Source: Ornithinimicrobium sp. CNJ-824 (GTDB lineage Bacteria > Actinomycetota > Actinomycetes > Actinomycetales > Dermatophilaceae). From it: DNA of 64,000 bases. The stretch covers positions 1 to 64,000 of the forward strand of contig NZ_MKKA01000044.1 of NCBI RefSeq assembly GCF_001942405.1, written 5' to 3'. The notes under the pieces were generated by a model, which saw only the letters and a program-made list of their open reading frames with translations, was not told the origin of the DNA and searched no databases. The first letter of the stretch is position 1, and each line of letters starts with the position of its first letter. The position numbers and the translations under genes were made by a program. Shown here in pieces: positions 9,997 through 30,727 of the stretch.

Positions 9997-11748
9997 TCAC
10001 CCCTGCTGGGTGAGATCGAGCATCTCGACCAGCCCCCCTGCCTCGCTGCGCAGACGGGCCGCCTCCTCGTCCGTCGGCTGGTCCATGGCCGCCAGCTCGG
10101 CCTCGGCGAGGCGGCGGTAGGCCGCCACCTCGCTGCGGGTCCGCTCCTCGTCCCAGCCGAGCAGGGGGGCTGCGATCCCGGCGATCTCCTCGGCCGCGTC
10201 CAGACCACGTCGCGGGATCTCGTAGACCAGCCGGGTGCGCCGGTAGAGCAGGTCGTCGAGGTGCAGCGCACCCTCGTGCGTGCAGGCGTAGGCGATCTCG
10301 GCACGCAGGTAGGTCGGCGCCGCGGCGAGCGGCTGCGCCAAGGACGGGTCCTCGGCGATGAGCTCGAGCAGCTCGTCCATGAGGGAGCCGTAGCGGTGCA
10401 GCAGGTGGTCCGCCAGCTGCTCGGTCCACCCGTGCTCGGCGCGCCACCCGCGCATACGCTGGCGGGCGACCTGCTCGCCGACCGCGCCCAGCAGCGGGAT
10501 CTCGTGCGTGACGGACGGACGGCGCCCTGCCTCGTCCTCACCCAGCGCGAAGTCGACGGCGTCCTTGGCCATCACGCGGTAGGTCGTGAGCTTGCCACCG
10601 CCGATGGTGGTCAACCCGGCGGCCGGGCTGGCCACGGTGTGCTCGCGGCTCACCTTGGCCGAGTCGGTGCCCTCCTTGGTGCCGGGCTGCAGCAGCGGCC
10701 GCAGGCCGGCATACGCTCCCACGACGTCCTCGCGGGTCAGCGTGGTGGTGAGCACCTCGTTGGCGTGCTCGAGGACGTAGTCGATGTCCTGGGACGTCGG
10801 GACGGGGTAACGCGGGTCCAGGTCCCAGGCGGTGTCGGTGGTCCCGAGGATCCAGTAGCGGGACCACGGGATGAAGAAGAGCACGGACTTCTCGGTCTGC
10901 AGGAACAGCCCGGAGTCCCCGTCGATCCGGTCCCGGGGGATGACCAGGTGGATGCCCTTGGAGGCCAGCACCTGCAGCCCGCCCTCGGTGCCGCTCAGCT
11001 GCTCGACGTCCTCGGTCCACACGCCGGTGCAGTTGATGACGTGCCGCGCGCGGACCTCCAGGTCCGTCCCGGTCTCGAGGTCGCGCAACCGGGCGCCCAC
11101 CACCCTGTCTCCCTCCCGGGCCAGGTCGACCACCTGGGTGCGGGAAGTCGCGTGGGCGCCATAGCTGACGGCGGTGCGCACCAGAGTTCCGACCAGCCGT
11201 GCGTCGTCGACGGTGGCGTCCCAGTACTTCACCGCGCCGATGGCGGTCTCGTGGCGCAGCTGGGGGAACTGCTTCTTCAGACCCGCCCGGCTGGTGTGCT
11301 GATGGATCGGCAGCGCCCGGCGTCCCGGCATGGCGTTGGCAAGCACGTCATAGAGCGTCACCCCCGCCCCGTAGTAGGCCCGTTGCCAGACCCGGTGCTC
11401 CAGGGGGATGAGGAAGGCCATCGGCTTGACCAGGTGGGGTGCCAGCCGGGTCAGCAGGAGGCCACGCTCGGTGAGGGCCTCGTGCACGAGCTTGAAGTCG
11501 AGCATCTGCAGGTAACGCAGGCCGCCGTGGACGAGCTTGGTGGACCAGGACGAGGTGCCGGAGGCCCAGTCCTGGGCCTCCACCAGTGCGGTGTCCAGTC
11601 CGCGCGTGACGGCGTCGAGGGCCGCGCCGGCACCGGTGACCCCACCACCGATCACCAGGACGTCCAGCTCACGGCCGGGCTCGGTGCTGGCGCGCAGACG
11701 CTCAAGCGCCTGGTCGCGACCTTCTGGGGTCAGGGGCAGTGGTCTCAC
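9997..11748 (-). CDS. glpD: Aerobic glycerol-3-phosphate dehydrogenase
   Basis: FAD-dependent, membrane-associated oxidation of glycerol 3-phosphate to dihydroxyacetone phosphate, feeding electrons to quinone. The FAD-binding GGGVTGAGAALDA is at 34-46, followed by SGTSSWSTKLVHGGLRYLQ and ATVDDARLVGTLV; the C-terminal DAO_C-like domain begins with AYACTHEGALHLDDLLYRRTR. The GTG at 11748 is chosen because GGAGGG lies about six bases upstream and the protein (583 residues) is then of normal length. First gene of glpD-glpF-glpK. Divergent from the GNAT gene, with about 100 bp shared upstream DNA. Confidence 0.94.
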   Translation of the reverse strand: MRPLPLTPEGRDQALERLRASTEPGRELDVLVIGGGVTGAGAALDAVTRGLDTALVEAQDWASGTSSWSTKLVHGGLRYLQMLDFKLVHEALTERGLLLTRLAPHLVKPMAFLIPLEHRVWQRAYYGAGVTLYDVLANAMPGRRALPIHQHTSRAGLKKQFPQLRHETAIGAVKYWDATVDDARLVGTLVRTAVSYGAHATSRTQVVDLAREGDRVVGARLRDLETGTDLEVRARHVINCTGVWTEDVEQLSGTEGGLQVLASKGIHLVIPRDRIDGDSGLFLQTEKSVLFFIPWSRYWILGTTDTAWDLDPRYPVPTSQDIDYVLEHANEVLTTTLTREDVVGAYAGLRPLLQPGTKEGTDSAKVSREHTVASPAAGLTTIGGGKLTTYRVMAKDAVDFALGEDEAGRRPSVTHEIPLLGAVGEQVARQRMRGWRAEHGWTEQLADHLLHRYGSLMDELLELIAEDPSLAQPLAAAPTYLRAEIAYACTHEGALHLDDLLYRRTRLVYEIPRRGLDAAEEIAGIAAPLLGWDEERTRSEVAAYRRLAEAELAAMDQPTDEEAARLRSEAGGLVEMLDLTQQG

Positions 11749-11850
11749 GGCGGTCCCTCCTGTGCGCTCGGCGGTCCTGCCACTGTATCGCGGGGTCGCC
11801 GCAGCGATACCGGTCCCGCTCCCACAGAGGCCGGGTGGCAGCATGGGCCC

Positions 11851-12690
11851 GTGCTGCGAAGCCGACGTGCTGCCCGGGCCCTGGGACCGTCGGAGGTCGA
11901 CAGGGCGCTGGAGGTGTGCGCCGAGGACCCGGTCATGAACGTCTTCGTCGCCGCCCGCATCATCGAGACCCAGCTGCGGGGCGACCGGGGGCCGCTGTTC
12001 GGTCACGACCTGGAGGGGGAGGGGGCGCTGTGCTGGTGCTCGGCCAACGTCGTGCCGGTCCACGCGGGGCCTCGGTCCCTCGCGGCGTTCGCCGACAAGG
12101 TCGTCCGCCGGCGCCGCTGGGCGAGCTCGGTCTTCGGGCCGGTCGACCAGGTGCTGGATCTGTGGGCGCGTCTCGAGCCGTCCTGGGGCGCACCCCGGGA
12201 GGTGCGCGCGGAACAGCTGGTGATGACGGTGCGACCGGGGGATGTGCTGGGGGTCCCGGCGGACCCGCACGTGCGCCTGGCCCGTCCCGACGAGGTCGAC
12301 CGGGTCGTGCCGGCGTCCGAGGCCATGTTCACCGAGGAGATCGGCTACCCGCCCTACCAGGGCTCGTCGGCGGGCTACCGCCGCTCGGTCCTCGGACTGA
12401 TCGAGAAGGGTCACACCTTCGTGCGCACCGACCACACCGGTGCGGTGATCTTCAAGGCCGACCTGGGGTCCGTGGCGCTCGGTGTGGCTCAGGTGCAGGG
12501 CGTCTGGGTGCATCCTCGGTGGCGTGGGCAGGGCCTGGCGGCGCCTGCGATGGCGGCGGTCGTCCAGCAGACCATGGCACGCGTCGCCCCGGCGATCACC
12601 CTCTACGTCAACGACTTCAACACCGCCGTGGCGACCTACCGACGGGCGGGCTTCGTACGAACTGGCACCTTCGCCACCGTGCTTCTCTGA
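11851..12690 (+). CDS. GNAT acetyltransferase with N-terminal DUF4081-like domain
   Basis: Two-domain protein of 279 residues. The N-terminal half (EVCAEDPVMNVFVAARI onward) resembles DUF4081, found in mycobacterial Rv2867c-type proteins. The C-terminal half is a GNAT fold with the acetyl-CoA pyrophosphate loop VHPRWRGQGLAAPAMAAVV and the tail ITLYVNDFNTAVATYRRAGF. It should transfer an acetyl group from acetyl-CoA; the acceptor is unknown. GTG 11851 gives the full DUF4081 start. No regular operon partner is visible; the next gene begins about 120 bp later behind a G/T-rich stretch. Confidence 0.82.
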   Translation: MLRSRRAARALGPSEVDRALEVCAEDPVMNVFVAARIIETQLRGDRGPLFGHDLEGEGALCWCSANVVPVHAGPRSLAAFADKVVRRRRWASSVFGPVDQVLDLWARLEPSWGAPREVRAEQLVMTVRPGDVLGVPADPHVRLARPDEVDRVVPASEAMFTEEIGYPPYQGSSAGYRRSVLGLIEKGHTFVRTDHTGAVIFKADLGSVALGVAQVQGVWVHPRWRGQGLAAPAMAAVVQQTMARVAPAITLYVNDFNTAVATYRRAGFVRTGTFATVLL

Positions 12691-23968: not shown

Positions 23969-24688
23969 TCACCGGTTCCGGGTCGCGTAGCCGAACCGTT
24001 CGCCGCCCTGGAGCGCGTCCCGGTCGTTGCCGTAGGTCGGCAGGCCGCCTGCCCGGCGCAGCAGGTCGGCGGTGTGCATGAGGTTCCAGGACATGATCGT
24101 GGCGTTCGTGCGGGTGAAGTCGCTGTCGAAGCCGACCGGCACGTCGTCCTCGCGCGGGTCGCCGTAGGAGGGGCCGGGCCCGATCTCGCCGATCCATCCG
24201 ACGTCGGCCTGGGGCGGGATGGTCAGGCCCAGGTGGGACAGCGCGAACAGCAGCGACATCGCGGTGTGCTTGACGCCGTCCTCGTTGCCGGTGATGACCG
24301 CCCCGCCGACCTTGCCGTAGTAAATCGACTGGCCGGCGTCGTTGAGCTGGCCGGACATGGCGTAGAGCCGCTCCACGACGCGCCGGCAGACGGAGGACTC
24401 CTCGCCCAGCCAGATCGGGGTGCCCAGCACGAGGATGTCGGCGGCCCGGACCCGGGGCCACAGGTCGGGCCACTCGTCGGTCTCCCAGCCGTGCTCGCGC
24501 ATGTCGGGCTGCACGCCGGGGGCGATGTCGTGGCCGACCGCGTGCAGGCGGTCCACCGTGACGCCGGCGCCGGTCATGAGGTGGGCCACGACGTCGAGCA
24601 GCCGGCCGGTGTGGGAGCGGGCCGGGTCCGGCGTCAGGGAGCAGTTGACGAGCAGGGCGGTGAGGTCTTCGTAGCGGGGTGCGTCCAT
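23969..24688 (-). CDS. Flavodoxin-family / NADPH-dependent FMN reductase-like protein
   Basis: Predicted FMN-binding protein of 239 residues. TALLVNCSLTPDPARSHTGRL is the phosphate-binding loop of the flavodoxin-like fold; ADILVLGTPIWLGEESSVCRRVVERL is the second cofactor segment; GKVGGAVITGNEDGVKHTAMSLLFALSHLG is typical of the NADPH-dependent FMN reductase/iron-sulfur flavoprotein group. It probably passes electrons from NAD(P)H to a small acceptor. Convergent with the MDMPI gene; about 100 bp separate it from the next gene upstream on its strand. Confidence 0.78.
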   Translation of the reverse strand: MDAPRYEDLTALLVNCSLTPDPARSHTGRLLDVVAHLMTGAGVTVDRLHAVGHDIAPGVQPDMREHGWETDEWPDLWPRVRAADILVLGTPIWLGEESSVCRRVVERLYAMSGQLNDAGQSIYYGKVGGAVITGNEDGVKHTAMSLLFALSHLGLTIPPQADVGWIGEIGPGPSYGDPREDDVPVGFDSDFTRTNATIMSWNLMHTADLLRRAGGLPTYGNDRDALQGGERFGYATRNR

Positions 24689-24790: not shown

Positions 24791-25125
24791 TCAGGGACGC
24801 CGCGTGAACGCCACGACGAGACCGAGGACGCCGCCGAAGACGAGATGGCCCATCAGGCTCATCAGGCTGGTGCCGTCGAGCTGGGCGACCGGCATGCCCA
24901 GCGCGACCGGCATGGCCAGGAGCGCGCCCAGGACCCACCAGACGACGCCCCAGCCGAGGCCGGGGACGTGGAGCCGACGAGCTGGGCGACCATGGGGATC
25001 ATCCCCATCACGTGCATGAGGATGCCGAAGACCAGGCCTCCGGCCAGGCCGCCGAGCGCGCCGTGGGTGACGGAGGTCAGCAGCGGGGTGGACGTGGTGC
25101 GGGGGACGGTGGCGGTGGTGCTCAT
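24791..25125 (-). CDS. Small multi-pass membrane protein, frameshifted
   Basis: Unassigned membrane protein of about 111 residues. From ATG 25125 it reads STPLLTSVTHGALGGLAGGLVFGILMHVMGMIPMVAQLVGS. One base is then missing (a C near 24,976), after which HVPGLGWGVVWWVLGALLAMPV and LMGHLVFGGVLGLVVAF continue to the stop at 24791. About four hydrophobic helices with small-residue GxxxG patterns are visible. It lies 56 bp behind the AhpD-like gene and may share its ECF promoter. Confidence 0.6.
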
Positions 25126-25181
25126 GACGGGACTCCTTCGTCGTGGGTCTTTCCCGGCCGGGGTTCCCGGTCGCTGGTGCG

Positions 25182-25724
25182 TCAGGCGGCGGGAGCCGCC
25201 GGCAGGTCGATCTCGGTGCCGGCGTAGTGGTTGAAGTAGTTCGTGAAGACGTTGGCCATGACGTGGGTGAACGTCTCGGTGAGCTGTTCCTCGGTCCAGC
25301 CGGCGGCCAGCGCGGCCTCCCAGGTGGCGTCCTGGACGTGGCCGGCGCTGGTGGTGGCCTCCCTGGCCAGGTCGGCGATGGTGCCCAGCCGGGGGTCGTC
25401 CAGGCGCTGGCCGGTCCGGGCCGCGACCATCTGCTCCTCGGACAGGCCCGCGCGCCGGCCGGCGGCTGTGTGCGCCGCCTCGCAGTAGTCGCAGTCGTTG
25501 GCACCGGCCACCGTCAGGGCGATGGTCTCGCGGGTGGCCGCGTCGAGCGTGCCGTGCTCGCCGAGGGCGCCGACGAGCCCGGTGTAGGCGTTGATGACCG
25601 CCGGCGAGGACGCCATGGTGGCGTGGATGGCCATGGTCCGGCCGGTCCGCCTGCTCATGGCCGTCAACGCCGCGGTCGAGGCCTGCGGTGCGGTCCGGGT
25701 GGTGACGGCGGGGATGCGCTGCAC
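25182..25724 (-). CDS. AhpD-like carboxymuconolactone decarboxylase-family protein
   Basis: Alkylhydroperoxidase-type protein of 180 residues. The core NDCDYCEAAHTAAGRRAG holds the redox pair C78-x-x-C81 and H85, the AhpD catalytic triad pattern. Such proteins reduce peroxides or act as thiol redox partners; the sequence also has the MAIHATMASSPAVINAY block common in uncharacterised actinobacterial members. GTG 25724 follows GGAGGA. Upstream (25,779-25,809) is a promoter pattern identical in spacing to that of the ECF sigma gene at 28 kb, so it is a probable member of that regulon. Confidence 0.83.
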   Translation of the reverse strand: MQRIPAVTTRTAPQASTAALTAMSRRTGRTMAIHATMASSPAVINAYTGLVGALGEHGTLDAATRETIALTVAGANDCDYCEAAHTAAGRRAGLSEEQMVAARTGQRLDDPRLGTIADLAREATTSAGHVQDATWEAALAAGWTEEQLTETFTHVMANVFTNYFNHYAGTEIDLPAAPAA

Positions 25725-25778: not shown

Positions 25779-25809
25779 AACCCGGTGACCCGCCCACCCG
25801 CTTCCCGGG
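25779..25809 (-). promoter_or_regulatory. Predicted ECF-sigma promoter of the AhpD-like gene
   Basis: On the minus strand: CCCGGGAAGC, twelve bases, CACCGGGTT. The same boxes with the same twelve-base gap precede the ECF sigma gene (28,043-28,073). The pattern resembles GGAA..GTT promoters of SigR/SigH-type factors. It ends 55 bp before the GTG. Confidence 0.6.
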
Positions 25810-25843
25810 TACGGTCACCGAGGAGACGACGCGGAGGTACGAC

Positions 25844-27172
25844 GTGGGACAGACCCAGCAGCAGCGCAGCGACGGCGACCGGACGACCGTCCGGGACGTG
25901 AGCTTCCCGGGGGCGCAGGGGCACGATCTGGCAGCCACCCTCGAGCTCCCCGACGGGCGACCGCGCGGCTATGCGGTCATGGCGCACTGCTTCACGTGCA
26001 CCAGCGACGCGCACGCCACGACACGCATCTCCCGGATGCTGGCCGAACGGGGGTATGCCGTGCTGCGGTTCGACTTCACCGGCCTGGGCGACTCCGCGGG
26101 CGACTTCGCCGAGACGACCTTCACCACCAACGTCGAGGACCTCGTGGCGGCCGCGCGGTGGATGGGGCGCGAGTGGGGCGAGGTCGGGCTGCTCGTCGGG
26201 CACTCGTTCGGCGGCGCGGCGGCCATCGCCGCCGCCGGGCAGATCGACACGGTCCGGGCCGTCGTCACCGTTGCCGCTCCGGCGTCGACCGACCACGTCC
26301 GCCACCTGCTGCGCGGGGCCCGCCCCAGCGACGAGGGCGAGGACCGGCTCAAGGTCGACATCGGCGGCCGCCCGTTCGTCATCGGCCGGCGCTTCCTGGA
26401 CGACATCTCCGAGCAGTCCCAGGCCGAGCGGCTCGGGGCGATGGACGCGGCGCTGCTCGTGCTGCACTCGCCGCAGGACCGGGTCGTCGGGATCGAGCAG
26501 GCGGGCAAGATCTTCGCCGCGGCCAGCCACCCCCGGTCGTTCGTCGCCCTGGACGGTGCCGACCACCTGCTCTCCGACCACGCCGATGCCGAGTTCGCCG
26601 CCGGGATCATCGCCACCTGGGGCGCACGCTACGTGCCCGAGCCCACCGCCGCCGACCCTGTGGCGGAGTCGCAGGCCCCGGCGGACGAGGCGGCCCGGGC
26701 GGTGTCGACGGCCCTGGCCACCGAACCGGTCCTGGAAGGGGTGCGGGTGATCGAGCGCGACGCGGACTCGGGTTACGCGCACACCGCAGAGGCGGGACGG
26801 CACACCTGGGTCCTGGACGAGCCGACCGCCGCCGGGGGCGACGACGAAGGGCCCGATCCCTACCAGGTGATGCTGTCGGCGCTGGGCGCCTGCACCTCGA
26901 TGACGATGCGGATGTATGCCCGGCGGAAGGGCTGGGACTACGGGTCCACGACAGTCACGGTGCGGCACAGCAGGATCCACGCCAGGGACTGCCAGGAGTG
27001 CGAGACCACCGAGGGACGTCTGGAGCGGATCGACCGGACCATCACCGTGGATCCGGACCTGTCGGAGGGGCAGCGGGAGGCGCTGCTGCGGATCGCCGAC
27101 AAGTGCCCGGTCCACCGCACCCTGACCGGCACCGTGGAGATCTTCACCGAGCTGGGGCCTGAGGACGCCTGA
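25844..27172 (+). CDS. Alpha/beta-hydrolase-OsmC fusion protein
   Basis: Bifunctional protein of 442 residues. The N-terminal half is a serine hydrolase (HCFTCTSDAHATTRI, nucleophile S121 in GHSFGG, late acid/base in LHSPQDRVV and DGADHLLSD). The C-terminal half is an OsmC/Ohr-type domain with its two reactive cysteines, C350 (LGACTSMTMRMYA) and C421 (DKCPVHRTL). OsmC domains reduce organic hydroperoxides; the hydrolase may release the peroxidised acyl group, but this is inference. GTG 25844 follows GGAGG by eight bases. Divergent from the AhpD-like gene across a region with an inverted repeat CGGTGACC...GGTCACCG, supporting joint control. Confidence 0.88.
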   Translation: MGQTQQQRSDGDRTTVRDVSFPGAQGHDLAATLELPDGRPRGYAVMAHCFTCTSDAHATTRISRMLAERGYAVLRFDFTGLGDSAGDFAETTFTTNVEDLVAAARWMGREWGEVGLLVGHSFGGAAAIAAAGQIDTVRAVVTVAAPASTDHVRHLLRGARPSDEGEDRLKVDIGGRPFVIGRRFLDDISEQSQAERLGAMDAALLVLHSPQDRVVGIEQAGKIFAAASHPRSFVALDGADHLLSDHADAEFAAGIIATWGARYVPEPTAADPVAESQAPADEAARAVSTALATEPVLEGVRVIERDADSGYAHTAEAGRHTWVLDEPTAAGGDDEGPDPYQVMLSALGACTSMTMRMYARRKGWDYGSTTVTVRHSRIHARDCQECETTEGRLERIDRTITVDPDLSEGQREALLRIADKCPVHRTLTGTVEIFTELGPEDA

Positions 27173-27191
27173 GCAGGCTGGGGGTGCCGGC

Positions 27192-27476
27192 TCAGGACGG
27201 GGGCCCCTCCTCGTCGAGGCCTGCGACGAACCGACGCAGACGGTCCACGGCGTCCTCGTCAGGCAGGCTGGTCGGCCCCAGCGTCAGGGTCAGGGCATGG
27301 TGCAGGGCCCGGTGCTCCTGGACCACCTGCGTGCAGCGCGCGCACACGTCCAGGTGCTCCTCGAGCCGCTGCACCTCCTGCGGGGTCAGGGACGCCGAGG
27401 GGTCGGCGTCCAGGTAGCGCTGGACGTGCCTGGCGGACCAGCGGCACTCCAGCATCTGCCGCAACGACTGCTTCAT
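27192..27476 (-). CDS. ZAS-type anti-sigma factor
   Basis: Small cytoplasmic zinc-binding anti-sigma factor of 94 residues. The ZAS motif H41-x3-C45-x2-C48 (HLDVCARC) is present, with an upstream H17 as candidate fourth ligand. Such proteins (RsrA/ChrR group) hold their sigma factor until thiol oxidation releases zinc. Its ATG overlaps the sigma factor stop (ATGA), the usual arrangement for a sigma/anti-sigma pair. It converges on the hydrolase-OsmC gene with about 20 bp between stops. Redox sensing is likely from the motif and neighbours but not shown. Confidence 0.82.
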   Translation of the reverse strand: MKQSLRQMLECRWSARHVQRYLDADPSASLTPQEVQRLEEHLDVCARCTQVVQEHRALHHALTLTLGPTSLPDEDAVDRLRRFVAGLDEEGPPS

Positions 27477-28015
27477 GAGGATCCTCCCTGCGTCAGGACA
27501 TCGGGTCCGAGCCGTCGGCGCAACCGGTCACGGGCGCGCGACAAGCGAGACATGACCGTGCCGACCGGCACTCCGAGCACGGCGGCGGCCTCGGCGTAGG
27601 ACAGGTCGTGCACGTCCACGAGCAGCACAGCCGCCCGGAACCGGGGATCCAGCTCCCGGAGGGCGCGCACCAGCTGCGTGGGTAGGGTCGCGTCCAGGTA
27701 GGTCTGCTCGGAGCTGGCCGTCGTGGCCGCGCCGAACGCCGGGCGGTGACCCTGCAGCACCGACCAGTCGTCGACGAGGTCGGGGCGGGTGCGCCGCTGC
27801 ATGTTGAGGTGGGTCCGGCGCAGGATCGTCAGCAACCAGGCCCGGGGGTGGCGCCCGTCGAACCGGTCCAGCGCCCGGTAGGCACGCAGCAGTGCCTCCT
27901 GGACCAGGTCCTCCGCGTCGGCGTGCCGCGACGTCAGGGAGTAGGCGACGCGCAGCATCACCTCGATCTCAGGCTCGACGACCTCCGCGAAGGTCTGCGA
28001 GCGGTCAGACCCCAC
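27473..28015 (-). CDS. ECF sigma factor
   Basis: Extracytoplasmic-function RNA polymerase sigma factor of 180 residues. Region 2: VAYSLTSRHADAEDLVQEALLRAYRALDRF, with AWLLTILRRTHLN; region 4: LSYAEAAAVLGVPVGTVMSRLSRARDRL. GTG 28015 is preferred over an upstream in-frame GTG because AAGGGA precedes it and the predicted promoter (28,043-28,073) would place the transcript start close to or past the upstream codon. It is coupled to a zinc anti-sigma gene and shares its promoter pattern with the AhpD-like gene, suggesting autoregulation in a peroxide or thiol stress response. Confidence 0.88.
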   Translation of the reverse strand: MGSDRSQTFAEVVEPEIEVMLRVAYSLTSRHADAEDLVQEALLRAYRALDRFDGRHPRAWLLTILRRTHLNMQRRTRPDLVDDWSVLQGHRPAFGAATTASSEQTYLDATLPTQLVRALRELDPRFRAAVLLVDVHDLSYAEAAAVLGVPVGTVMSRLSRARDRLRRRLGPDVLTQGGSS

Positions 28016-28042
28016 GGTCCCTTGCTCGTTCCACACCGGGGT

Positions 28043-28073
28043 AACCCGGTGGCGGCGCCTCCTGCTTCCCGGG
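28043..28073 (-). promoter_or_regulatory. Predicted autoregulatory ECF promoter
   Basis: Minus strand: CCCGGGAAGC, twelve bases, CACCGGGTT, identical boxes and gap to 25,779-25,809. The downstream box ends 28 bp before the sigma factor GTG at 28015. Confidence 0.6.
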
Positions 28074-28094: not shown

Positions 28095-28772
28095 ATGCAG
28101 AGTCGACCAGACCTCATCGTGTTCGACGTCAACGAGACGCTGTCGGACATGAGCCCGATGGGGGAGCGGTTCGACGCCGTCGGAGCACCCGAGCATCTGG
28201 CGAGGACGTGGTTCGCCGCGCTGCTGCGGGACGGTTTCGCCCTGACCGCGGCCGGGTCGAACCCTTCGTTCGCCGAGGTCGGCAGGGACGTGCTGGGCAG
28301 CATGCTGGCCCCGCACGTGGACGACGTGGCGACGGCCGTCGAGCACGTGATGGCCGGCTTCGGCCAGCTCGGCGTGCACCCGGACGTGGTCGAGGGCGTG
28401 CGGGCGCTCGGCGAGCTGGGCGCCCCCCTGGTGACCCTGAGCAACGGTTCCACCTCGGTGGCCCGGGGGCTGTTCGAGCGTCACGGCCTGAGCGACGCCT
28501 TCGACCGGCTGCTGTCGGTGGAGGACGCCCCGCGGTGGAAGCCTGCGCCAGAGGCGTACGCCTACGCCCTCGACGTGTGCGGTGTCGCCCCGGCCGACGC
28601 CCTGCTGGTGGCCGTCCACCCATGGGACGTCCACGGTGCCCACCAGGCGGGCCTGGCGACGGCGTGGCTGGACCGGAACGGCACCGCATACCCCGCCCAT
28701 TTCGCCGCCGCCGACCGGCAGGTGGGTTCGCTGGTCGAGCTGGCGTCCGTGCTGGCGGGCGCGACCGCGTAA
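28095..28772 (+). CDS. Haloacid dehalogenase type II-like hydrolase
   Basis: HAD-superfamily hydrolase of 225 residues. Motif I is FDVNETL with nucleophilic Asp; motif II is LVTLSNGS; the lysine motif is in PRWKPAPEAYAYAL; motif III is VAVHPWDVHGAHQAGL. The DVNETL form and the SNGS block place it with haloacid dehalogenase type II, which hydrolyses 2-haloalkanoates; many homologues have other small substrates. Divergent from the ECF sigma gene. A GCATACC motif copy near the 3' end (28,686) uses a rare GCA alanine codon. Confidence 0.85.
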   Translation: MQSRPDLIVFDVNETLSDMSPMGERFDAVGAPEHLARTWFAALLRDGFALTAAGSNPSFAEVGRDVLGSMLAPHVDDVATAVEHVMAGFGQLGVHPDVVEGVRALGELGAPLVTLSNGSTSVARGLFERHGLSDAFDRLLSVEDAPRWKPAPEAYAYALDVCGVAPADALLVAVHPWDVHGAHQAGLATAWLDRNGTAYPAHFAAADRQVGSLVELASVLAGATA

Positions 28773-28845: not shown

Positions 28846-29981
28846 ATGATGACAGCCGAGTCACTGCCCACGACGATGCGCGCGGCCGTGTGCCGCGAGG
28901 ACGGCCACCTCGTCCTCGAGGACCTGCCGGTGCCGCAGCCGCAGCGGGACGAGGTTCTGGTGAAGGTCACCGCCTGCGGGGTGTGCCACAGCGACCTGCA
29001 CGCGCTGGACGGGCACATCGCCTTCCCGCGGCCGGCGGTGCTCGGGCACGAGATCTCCGGCACGGTCGCGGCCCTCGGACCCGGCGCCGGGCGGGACGGC
29101 CTCGCCGTCGGGCAGCCCGTCGTGGGCGCCTTCCTCATGCCCTGCGGCCGCTGCCGGTACTGCGTCCAGGGCCGGGACGACCTGTGCGAGGAGTTCTTCG
29201 CCAGGAACCGGCTGGGCGGCCAGCTCTTCGACGGCACCAGCCGGCTACGCACGACCGACGGCGAGACGGTGGCGATGTACTCCATGGGAGGGCTGGCCGA
29301 GTATGCCGTCGTCCCCGCCACCGCGGTCGCGCCCGTCCCGGAGGGGATGGAGCTCGCACCCGCCGCGGTCCTCGGGTGCGCCGGGCTGACCGCGTACGGG
29401 GCGGTGCGTCGGGCGGCCGACCTGCACCCGGGGGAGAGCGTGGCCGTGGTCGCCGTCGGTGGCGTCGGGTCCAACGTCGTGCAGCTGGCCCGGGCCTTCG
29501 GTGCCTCCGAGGTGGTCGCGGTCGACGTCGACGCCGAGAAGCTGGCTGCCGCCTCCCGCATGGGGGCGACGGTCACGGTCGACTCGCGTGACCCCGACGC
29601 CCGGGAGCAGGTCCTCGCCGCCACCGGGGGACGTGGGGTGGACGTGGCCTCGAGGTGCTCGGCCGCCCGGAGACCTTCGAGCTCGCGCTGCAGCTCCTCG
29701 CCCCCGGCGGCCGGATGGTCCCGGTCGGCCTGGGCCGCGCCGGCCAGGACGCCCCGGTGGAGATCAACCTCATGGTCCGCCGCAGCCTGCGGATCATCGC
29801 CAACTACGGCGCCCGCACCCGGACCGACCTGCCGGCGGTCGTCGACCTCGCCGACCGTGGCGTGCTGCGCTACCGGGACGTGGTGACCCGGACCTTCGAC
29901 CTGGCCGACGTCGACACCGCCTACGCCGCGCTGCGGGCCGGGGAGGTCACGGGCCGGGCCGTGGTGACCATGGGGACCTGA
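28846..29981 (+). CDS. Zinc-dependent alcohol dehydrogenase, frameshifted
   Basis: Medium-chain zinc alcohol dehydrogenase. Catalytic zinc ligands lie in TACGVCHSDLHA and LGHEISG; the structural zinc site is PCGRCRYCVQGRDDLC; the NAD-binding motif is VVAVGGVGSNVVQLARAFG. At 29,649 one C is missing, and the frame resumes as EVLGRPETFELALQLLAPGGRM to the stop at 29981. Restored length is about 378 residues, slightly long because of an insert with FARNRLGGQLFDGTSRLRTTDG, as seen in some actinobacterial ADHs. ATG 28846 or 28849 follows GAGGGAGA. Substrate unknown. Confidence 0.85.
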
Positions 29982-30142
29982 GGGGTATGCCGCACCGCCC
30001 CGTCGAGGAACACCTCGCCGGAGCGGACGTCCCCGGTTCCCGCCGGACGCGTATCCCCACCGGTCGGCCCAACGTGTCAACCTGATGGGGTCGGATGCGA
30101 CTAGTGGGCATGAGGGACGTAGCCGAAGAGGCGGTGACAGGC

Positions 30143-30727
30143 ATGTCGCAGGCGGGGCGGGAGCCGCGTGCGCCCGCGGACGCGGACGCCGCCACCACCC
30201 CCGTCGGCCAGGTCCGGCCCGAGGCCGTGGAGCTCACGAGGGACGAGGTGGTCGAGAGCCTGTTCCGGGAGCACTACGAGGGCCTGCTGCGCCTGTCGTA
30301 CTGCCTGCTGGGGGACCGGTGCAGCGCGGAGGACGTGGTCAAGGAGGCCTTTTGCTCGCTGCAGAGCCACTGGTCGACCCTCCGCGACCGGACCGCACCC
30401 CTGGGCTACCTGCGCGTCAGCGTGCTCAACCTCTCCCGCTCCCGGATCAGGACCCTCGTCAGGGAACGGTCCCGTCCCGGGTGGCTCGAGCCGAGCCCGC
30501 CACCGGACACGAGCGTGTCCGTCGTCGACCGGGACGAGGCGCACCGGCTCGTCGAGGCCGTGCGTGCCCTGCCCCGGCGGCAGTGCGAGGTCATCGTCTG
30601 CCGCTACTTCCTCGAGCTGAGCGAGGCGGAGACGGCCTCGCTGCTGGGACTGAGCACCGGGTCGGTCAAGCGCCACGCCCGCCGTGCCCGCGCGACCCTC
30701 TTGACCACCCTGGAGGAGACCCGATGA
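30143..30727 (+). CDS. SigE-family/ECF-type sigma factor
   Basis: Second sigma factor of the window (about 194 residues). Region 2: LFREHYEGLLRLSYCLLGDRCSAEDVVKEAFCSLQSHW; region 4: LPRRQCEVIVCRYFLELSEAETASLLGLSTGSVKRHARRARATL. These match the actinobacterial SigE/SigM-like ECF group. The start could instead be ATG 30095 or 30110; 30143 is chosen because upstream residues show no family similarity. The gene overlaps the next one by ATGA, which encodes a membrane-anchored partner, so a sigma/anti-sigma pair is likely. Confidence 0.82.
   Translation: MSQAGREPRAPADADAATTPVGQVRPEAVELTRDEVVESLFREHYEGLLRLSYCLLGDRCSAEDVVKEAFCSLQSHWSTLRDRTAPLGYLRVSVLNLSRSRIRTLVRERSRPGWLEPSPPPDTSVSVVDRDEAHRLVEAVRALPRRQCEVIVCRYFLELSEAETASLLGLSTGSVKRHARRARATLLTTLEETR

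Follow-up and report, generated by a model that had tools for sequence, protein, structure and literature searches.

A predicted autoregulated ECF sigma factor with its own promoter motif and an AhpD-like candidate target in Ornithinimicrobium sp. CNJ-824

The described systems closest to the one analysed here are SigR-RsrA of Streptomyces and SigH-RshA of Mycobacterium and Corynebacterium, in which an extracytoplasmic function (ECF) sigma factor is paired with an adjacent zinc-type anti-sigma factor, uses a GGGAA-type -35 element and has thiol-redox targets. The promoter consensus is reported as GGGAAT(G/C)-16-(C/G)GTTG for SigR and as (G/T)GGAA(C/T)A-16-(C/G)GTT for SigH of M. tuberculosis (PMC3489674), and Cys11, His37, Cys41 and Cys44 of RsrA are described as one of two proposed zinc sites, with Cys11-Cys44 as the trigger disulfide (PMC3961337). 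ECF41 sigma factors are reported to drive neighbouring genes of the CMD/AhpD type, often together with their own gene, from the promoter TGTCACA-N16-CGTC, and to carry a C-terminal extension with no obvious anti-sigma factor (PMC3426412). An ECF sigma gene with an adjacent zinc-type anti-sigma gene, GGGAA-type -35 elements and an AhpD-like candidate target was found in a 64,000-nt stretch of DNA from Ornithinimicrobium sp. CNJ-824 (contig NZ_MKKA01000044.1, positions 1 to 64,000), hereafter the window.

A 31-bp element stands upstream of both the sigma gene and the AhpD-like gene. The probability that the ECF sigma factor encoded at 27473-28036 recognises both copies as -35/-10 promoters is put at about 0.82. 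The features concerned are the following.

28043-28073, minus strand: predicted promoter of the sigma/anti-sigma operon (-35 GGGAA at 28066-28070, -10 GGGTT at 28043-28047, gap 18)
27473-28036, minus strand: ECF sigma factor of 187 aa (Sigma70_r2 and r4), probable GTG start at 28036
27192-27476, minus strand: zinc-type anti-sigma factor of 94 aa, overlapping the sigma stop codon (zf-HC2, 23.5 bits against a cutoff of 22.2)
25779-25809, minus strand: predicted promoter of the AhpD gene (GGGAA at 25802-25806, GGGTT at 25779-25783, gap 18)
25182-25724, minus strand: AhpD-like CMD protein with the motif CDYCEAAH, of the form CxxCxxxH (PF02627, 3.1e-17)

As the original prediction had stated, CCCGGGAAGC-N12-CACCGGGTT was present on the minus strand at 28043-28073 and 25779-25809 with zero mismatches, each copy lying between divergent genes. 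No third copy was found within the 64 kb at up to three mismatches; at the same tolerance, shuffles of the window gave a mean of 0.07 matches, and two matches were reached in 0 of 100 shuffles. The pair is not a chance occurrence. In the assembly of the organism (3,445,055 bp in 62 contigs, 92.5% complete), the 19-base core spacing pattern GGGAAGC-N12-CACCGGGTT had two exact matches, which were the two window sites, and its near-matches comprised three with two mismatches and a remainder with three (67 in total, against 32 for the reversed-pattern control). The shorter pattern GGAA-N17/18-GGGTT occurred at six sites, against two for the reversed control. The assembly also held three GGGAA/GGGTT sites at gap 19 (loci L136-L138; loci and genomes are denoted by L and G numbers) and four further GGAA sites (L172, L175-L177). 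No open reading frame (ORF) of at least 50 aa began within 200 bp of the gap-19 site in L136, and L137 and L138 offered weak candidates only. The switch in this genome would be small, with two predicted operons only. The original prediction had proposed a genome search for both boxes at a 12-bp gap, with the absence of further matches upstream of genes counting against a regulon; no further exact match exists within this genome, and the regulon claim is rescued only because the other genomes compared carry the motif.

The spacing of the motif was analysed in 27 loci picked by sigma homology with the window excluded (441,865 bp) and in 70 control loci around other ECF matches (729,521 bp), counting gaps of 4-45. 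GGAA-Nx-GGGTT occurred 20 times at gap 17 and 43 times at gap 18 in the sigma loci (63 in total), with 0-4 occurrences at each other gap, compared with 3 and 3 in the controls, where other gaps gave 0-8. This count omitted three distant clade members (L058-L060), which are without sites; when they were added the peak stayed at 20 and 43 and the other gaps gave 0-5. Likewise, three control loci (L069, L078 and L124) fall inside the 34-member sigma clade described below, and without them the controls stayed at 3 and 3. Masking the sigma upstream regions left 13 (gap 17) and 30 (gap 18) occurrences against 0-3 at the other gaps between 8 and 30. The consensus at gap 18 was cGGGAA(G/T)g-N15-CGGGTTnCC. 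The preceding C and the CC after GGGTT are independent signs because they lay outside the search pattern. The two exact boxes of the original prediction were present but over-specified, the core conserved in relatives being (G)GGAA(G/T) and CGGGTTnCC, in which GGAA and GGGTT stand 17 or 18 bases apart.

Sites were also concentrated near the sigma gene. Across 18 genomes that carry this gene, 130 GGGAA-N17/18-GGGTT sites were counted, of which 39 lay within 20 kb of it, where 1.6 were expected; six of these genomes had no such site within that distance. ORFs of 80 aa or more started within 120 bp of 46 of 49 non-autoregulatory sites and of 48 of 62 wrong-gap pairs (Fisher p 0.018), a test that discriminates weakly in GC-rich DNA. 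By comparison with relatives, the reading of the motif as a promoter of this sigma clade is well supported.

The claim that the sigma gene is under its own control was supported by comparison with relatives. Of 31 sigma genes, 17 had an upstream site that matched at least nine of the ten core bases. Counted from GGGTT, the first in-frame start codon of these 17 stood exactly 8 nt downstream in 11 cases and 6-11 nt downstream in 15, the outliers being L159 (35 nt) and L165 (134 nt). Although site ranking favoured nearby start codons, dropping that preference still gave 17 of 31 with the same distances. When a fixed 160-bp upstream region was searched for sites with no more than one core mismatch, 16 of 31 clade members had a site, against 5 of 95 other ECF genes. 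Two-mismatch sites were present at the expected place in L133 and L134. In a sister subclade (L161-L164, L166 and L168) no site was found upstream of the sigma gene, yet L161-L164 have sites at neighbouring genes. In the window, the probable GTG start at 28036 lies 6 nt past GGGTT and matches the relatives in length and position; the next in-frame candidate is the GTG at 28015. Because the start codon is so close to the -10 box, the sigma factor would be autoregulated via a leaderless mRNA.

The sigma protein consists of Sigma70 regions 2 and 4 with no other large domain and has an adjacent anti-sigma gene, as in ECF (group 4) factors. Among 78 genomes including its own, a clear relative was present only in G000, G015 (two copies), G024, G054 and G064; identity to the window protein was 59-69% in the four relatives, and other ECF matches reached at most 42%. 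An eight-member profile at E 1e-40 matched 7 of 396 genomes in an order-level sample and 11 of 394 in a class-level sample, the own genome being counted in both. Among the matches listed in a pattern-based scan, Nocardioides rubriscoriae and Rhodococcus marinonascens are members, as are the more distant Streptomyces sp. CC228A and Longimycelium tulufanense. In a tree of 126 sigma factors, the window protein fell in a 19-member core (support 99/97) inside a 34-member group (99/91) that stands apart from the 92 other ECF factors. The clade, judged from these sequences, is patchy, well supported and mainly actinobacterial. Its tree departs from that of the species, in that the nearest supported set of the window protein includes two class-level relatives and the two G015 copies are separate, a pattern that fits horizontal spread. 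No sigma relative was found at E 1e-30 among 72,556 plasmid records. The densest cluster seen was in genome G536 (L161 and L162), with two sigma copies and 13 motif sites within 20 kb. No description of the clade or its promoter was evident in the literature searched, which comprised titles and the beginnings of abstracts and few subscription papers. The 2021 ECF classification may already number this group.

The zinc-type partner of the sigma factor, likewise part of the original prediction, recurs in the clade. An ORF with HxxxCxxC follows the sigma gene in 27 of 28 loci (the exception is L135) and overlaps the sigma stop codon in 24; 26 of the 27 have an extra Cys upstream of the motif. The window protein carries the HxxxCxxC signature of ZAS (zinc-associated anti-sigma) factors. 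Its corresponding residues are C11, H41, C45 and C48, of which H41, C45 and C48 are invariant across eight aligned rows, and the set resembles the Cys11/His37/Cys41/Cys44 set reported for RsrA (PMC3961337). A profile search of the PDB with the anti-sigma factor returned DdvA, RsiW, RsrA and ChrR in falling confidence (8e-6 to 0.25), the matches to the last three being weak, and its fold model (pLDDT 69.3, pTM 0.39), too weak for a fold test, gave no fold match at E ≤0.001. Similar Cys/His sites occur in anti-sigma factors not known to sense redox, and the RsrA-like spacing is for this reason a lead to redox sensing and not proof of it.

The AhpD-like protein has the CMD domain and CxxCxxxH of its family, and its start, GTG 25,724, lies 54 nt past its GGGTT. 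The proposal that this gene is a target was supported by comparison with relatives. Besides the exact site in the window, sites with at most one mismatch precede AhpD genes in R. marinonascens (L053) and G054 (L134/L211), three of the seven genes examined. Within the 78-genome set, 4 of the 5 genomes with the sigma gene encode this AhpD, as against 0 of the remaining 73; with the own genome excluded the counts are 3 of 4 and 0 of 73 (Fisher p 5.5e-5, relatedness ignored). The regulon reading is well supported for the sigma gene and fairly supported for the AhpD gene. Neighbouring genes are as follows.

24791-25126, minus strand: DUF6789-like membrane protein gene behind the AhpD gene (21.4 bits, below the Pfam cutoff of 27.1)
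23969-24688, minus strand: gene of the NADPH-dependent FMN reductase family (PF03358, 1.4e-11), possibly the last of the AhpD operon
25844-27172, plus strand: alpha/beta hydrolase-OsmC fusion (PF12697 and PF02566), divergent from the AhpD gene
28095-28772, plus strand: gene of the type II haloacid dehalogenase family (TIGR01428, above cutoff), divergent from the sigma gene

The AhpD promoter probably also serves the genes behind AhpD, and the AhpD, DUF6789-like and FMN-reductase genes may be co-transcribed. The DUF6789-like gene is split across two reading frames near 24970 by a genuine lesion or an assembly error. The only GGAA-N16-18-GGGTT sites in the window were the two described, both directed away from the dehalogenase gene, and no site directed at that gene was seen there. 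For the hydrolase-OsmC gene, no convincing site was found in the window, the best being an overlapping one with 2 of 10 core mismatches; in the 78-genome set the gene occurs in 3 of 5 sigma-bearing and 3 of 73 sigma-lacking genomes. In G015, on the other hand, a one-mismatch site precedes a hydrolase-OsmC gene beside the sigma gene, and a DUF427 gene with an exact site (L220:2811-3116, plus strand) is divergent from a second hydrolase-OsmC gene, mirroring the AhpD/OsmC layout of the window.

Proteins encoded downstream of a selected subset of motif sites were scanned in the relatives. Glutaredoxin family proteins were encoded behind sites in L053, L161, L164 (twice) and L169, the L161 protein passing the mycoredoxin cutoff, and a glutaredoxin-pyridine-nucleotide disulfide reductase fusion (L164:1-939, minus strand, cut by the locus end) starts 8 nt past GGGTT. 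Thioredoxin-like proteins, most of them lipoprotein-like by eye, were found behind sites in L161, L163, L164, L170 and L171, and flavin disulfide reductases in L055, L135 and L162; MerA-like reductases behind sites scored below the equivalog cutoff. Further families behind sites were DUF427 (L053, L169, L220), DUF6789-type membrane proteins (above the Pfam cutoff in L170; in L162 and L169 recognised solely through a tblastn match with the window gene), VTT proteins (L133, L159), further anti-sigma factors (L055, L161, L163), methyltransferases (L055 twice, L163) and a recurrent radical-SAM-like protein of about 495 aa, below the Pfam cutoff (L161:6676-8169, L163:9796-11280, L164:6825-8309). 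Six downstream proteins had no Pfam match (L131:5089, L056:2070, L158:5958, L158:16772, L162:7428 and L166:2971). Motif sites in Streptomyces sp. CC228A precede genes for an ArsM-like methyltransferase, which scored under the curated cutoff, and for a flavin disulfide reductase (L055:7633-8754 and 11440-12516), a hint of metalloid chemistry. A thiol-redox theme is probable from these families. Of the coherent peroxide/thiol unit of the original prediction, the thiol-redox part is supported by the genes behind the motif in relatives; peroxide is a putative inducer, and hydrolase-OsmC is no more than a candidate member, given its lack of a good window site and its presence in sigma-lacking relatives.

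Several observations weigh against this interpretation. Only the two window sites match GGGAA-N17/18-GGGTT in the own genome, and genome-wide totals overlap between sigma-bearing and sigma-lacking relatives and are not evidently raised in the former; because they overlap, the motif evidence is one of local clustering and not of genome-wide abundance. No good site precedes 14 of the 31 sigma genes, among them every one of the six in the sister subclade. The best sites at the other four AhpD genes (L209, L210, L212 and L213) have three mismatches, and AhpD occurs in only 5 of 18 other sigma-bearing genomes. Some proteins encoded behind sites have no evident redox role, namely GH15 (L131), DUF4399 (L161), solute-binding proteins (L158, L160), MFS (L056), a Crp-type regulator (L057) and a CDP-alcohol phosphatidyltransferase (L165).

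Other explanations of the elements were weighed against the same data. Strings of the CCCGGG type may be expected often in DNA of this base composition, but chance coincidence of GC-rich strings is contradicted by the shuffles, the uniqueness of the pair in the assembly and the gap 17/18 peak in relatives, and its probability is negligible. An imperfect dyad, ACCCGG-N19-CCGGGT, is visible in both copies, each placed between divergent genes, as would suit an operator for a separate DNA-binding regulator common to both gene pairs. This was rejected as the main explanation because relatives conserve the asymmetric GGGAA and CGGGTTnCC and not the dyad; moreover, the start codon follows the motif at a fixed short distance, the -35 element resembles the SigR/SigH consensus given in PMC3489674, and the motif tracks this sigma clade, all of which make an operator very improbable. 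The likeness of the -35 element to that published for SigR/SigH also allows that the boxes belong to another sigma factor, such as a SigR/SigH- or SigE-like ECF factor of this genome, with the adjacent sigma gene merely one target. Other ECF sigma factors do exist in the genome, and sigma-lacking genomes hold scattered GGGAA-N17/18-GGGTT sites, but no gap 17/18 peak was seen in the 70 loci around other ECF genes, the sites cluster at this sigma factor, and the -10 element is CGGGTTnCC and not the published (C/G)GTTG or CGTC. Recognition by another sigma factor is accordingly judged highly unlikely.

Recognition by the adjacent sigma factor leaves the nature of the stress to be considered. A genuine sigma switch responding to soft metals or metalloids, cell-envelope damage or nutrient limitation would accommodate the ArsM-like methyltransferase, the sub-cutoff MerA-like reductases, the exported thioredoxin-like proteins and the VTT and DUF6789 membrane proteins; it is possible but rather doubtful, as thiol-redox families are represented by glutaredoxin/mycoredoxin, AhpD and disulfide reductases, and as the Cys/His set of the anti-sigma factor is of the RsrA type. 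Since stress by metals overlaps with thiol stress, this alternative is only partly distinct from a thiol-stress switch.

Despite the likeness to SigR-RsrA, the proteins fell well short of the cutoffs for those families. The sigma factor scored 98.4 bits against the 251.55 cutoff of the SigH_actino model TIGR02947, and the anti-sigma factor 22.1 bits against the 62.5 cutoff of the RsrA model TIGR03988. Relative to the published SigR/SigH promoters the -35 element is alike, whereas the -10 element reads CGGGTTnCC and the spacer usually exceeds that of the (C/G)GTTG consensus by one base, the GGAA-GGGTT gap being mostly 18; targets here are also clustered near the sigma gene, unlike those of SigR/SigH. 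ECF41 is similar in having CMD/AhpD-type genes nearby as targets, often with its own gene, but membership was rejected, as the window protein has 187 aa with region 4 extending to residue ~169 of 183, an anti-sigma factor is present and the promoter differs from that reported. SigE of Streptomyces coelicolor shares a GGAA-type -35 element, but its sites as reported mostly end in a CGTC-like -10 and its regulon is that of the cell envelope (PMC6767563). The system thus appears to work like SigR-RsrA, yet the tests run place it outside that group. The sequence comparisons give good support to a thiol-stress switch of the SigR/RsrA kind that has a promoter of its own.

The predicted mechanism is as follows. 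In unstressed cells, the zinc-type anti-sigma factor from the same operon would keep the sigma factor inactive. Once the Cys/zinc site of the anti-sigma factor (C11, H41, C45, C48), the putative redox trigger, is oxidised or alkylated, the sigma factor would be released and with RNA polymerase would bind and start transcription at GGGAA-N18-GGGTT before its own operon, giving positive autoregulation and probably a leaderless message beginning near GTG 28036. Transcription would also start before AhpD, the predicted operon probably including the DUF6789-like and FMN-reductase genes. The products would restore the thiol/peroxide balance, and fresh anti-sigma factor would close the loop.

Two further genes were noted on the plus strand beyond the dehalogenase gene. 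An alcohol-dehydrogenase-like gene (family assigned by eye; 28848-29981) is split across two reading frames near 29655, and a second ECF-type sigma gene (30095-30727) is nearest to the SigE-fam_strep model, below its cutoff (124.1 against 141.55 bits).

A broader proposal, offered tentatively, is that of a second, self-contained actinobacterial thiol-stress regulon beside SigR/SigH. It would comprise a patchy module of ECF sigma factor and redox-type zinc anti-sigma factor, with the private promoter cGGGAA(G/T)g-N15-CGGGTTnCC and a leaderless sigma mRNA. Its targets would be clustered locally and would include glutaredoxins/mycoredoxins, exported proteins of the thioredoxin-like kind, disulfide reductases, AhpD/OsmC, DUF427 and DUF6789. 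The module may be adapted to an envelope or soft-metal thiol poison and would have moved from one genus to another. For this ECF clade, the analysis provides a testable promoter consensus and a predicted regulon, and links uncharacterised DUF427, DUF6789 and VTT proteins, hydrolase-OsmC fusions and a radical-SAM-like family to thiol stress. The sigma factor, anti-sigma factor and promoter form a compact set that may be orthogonal to SigR.

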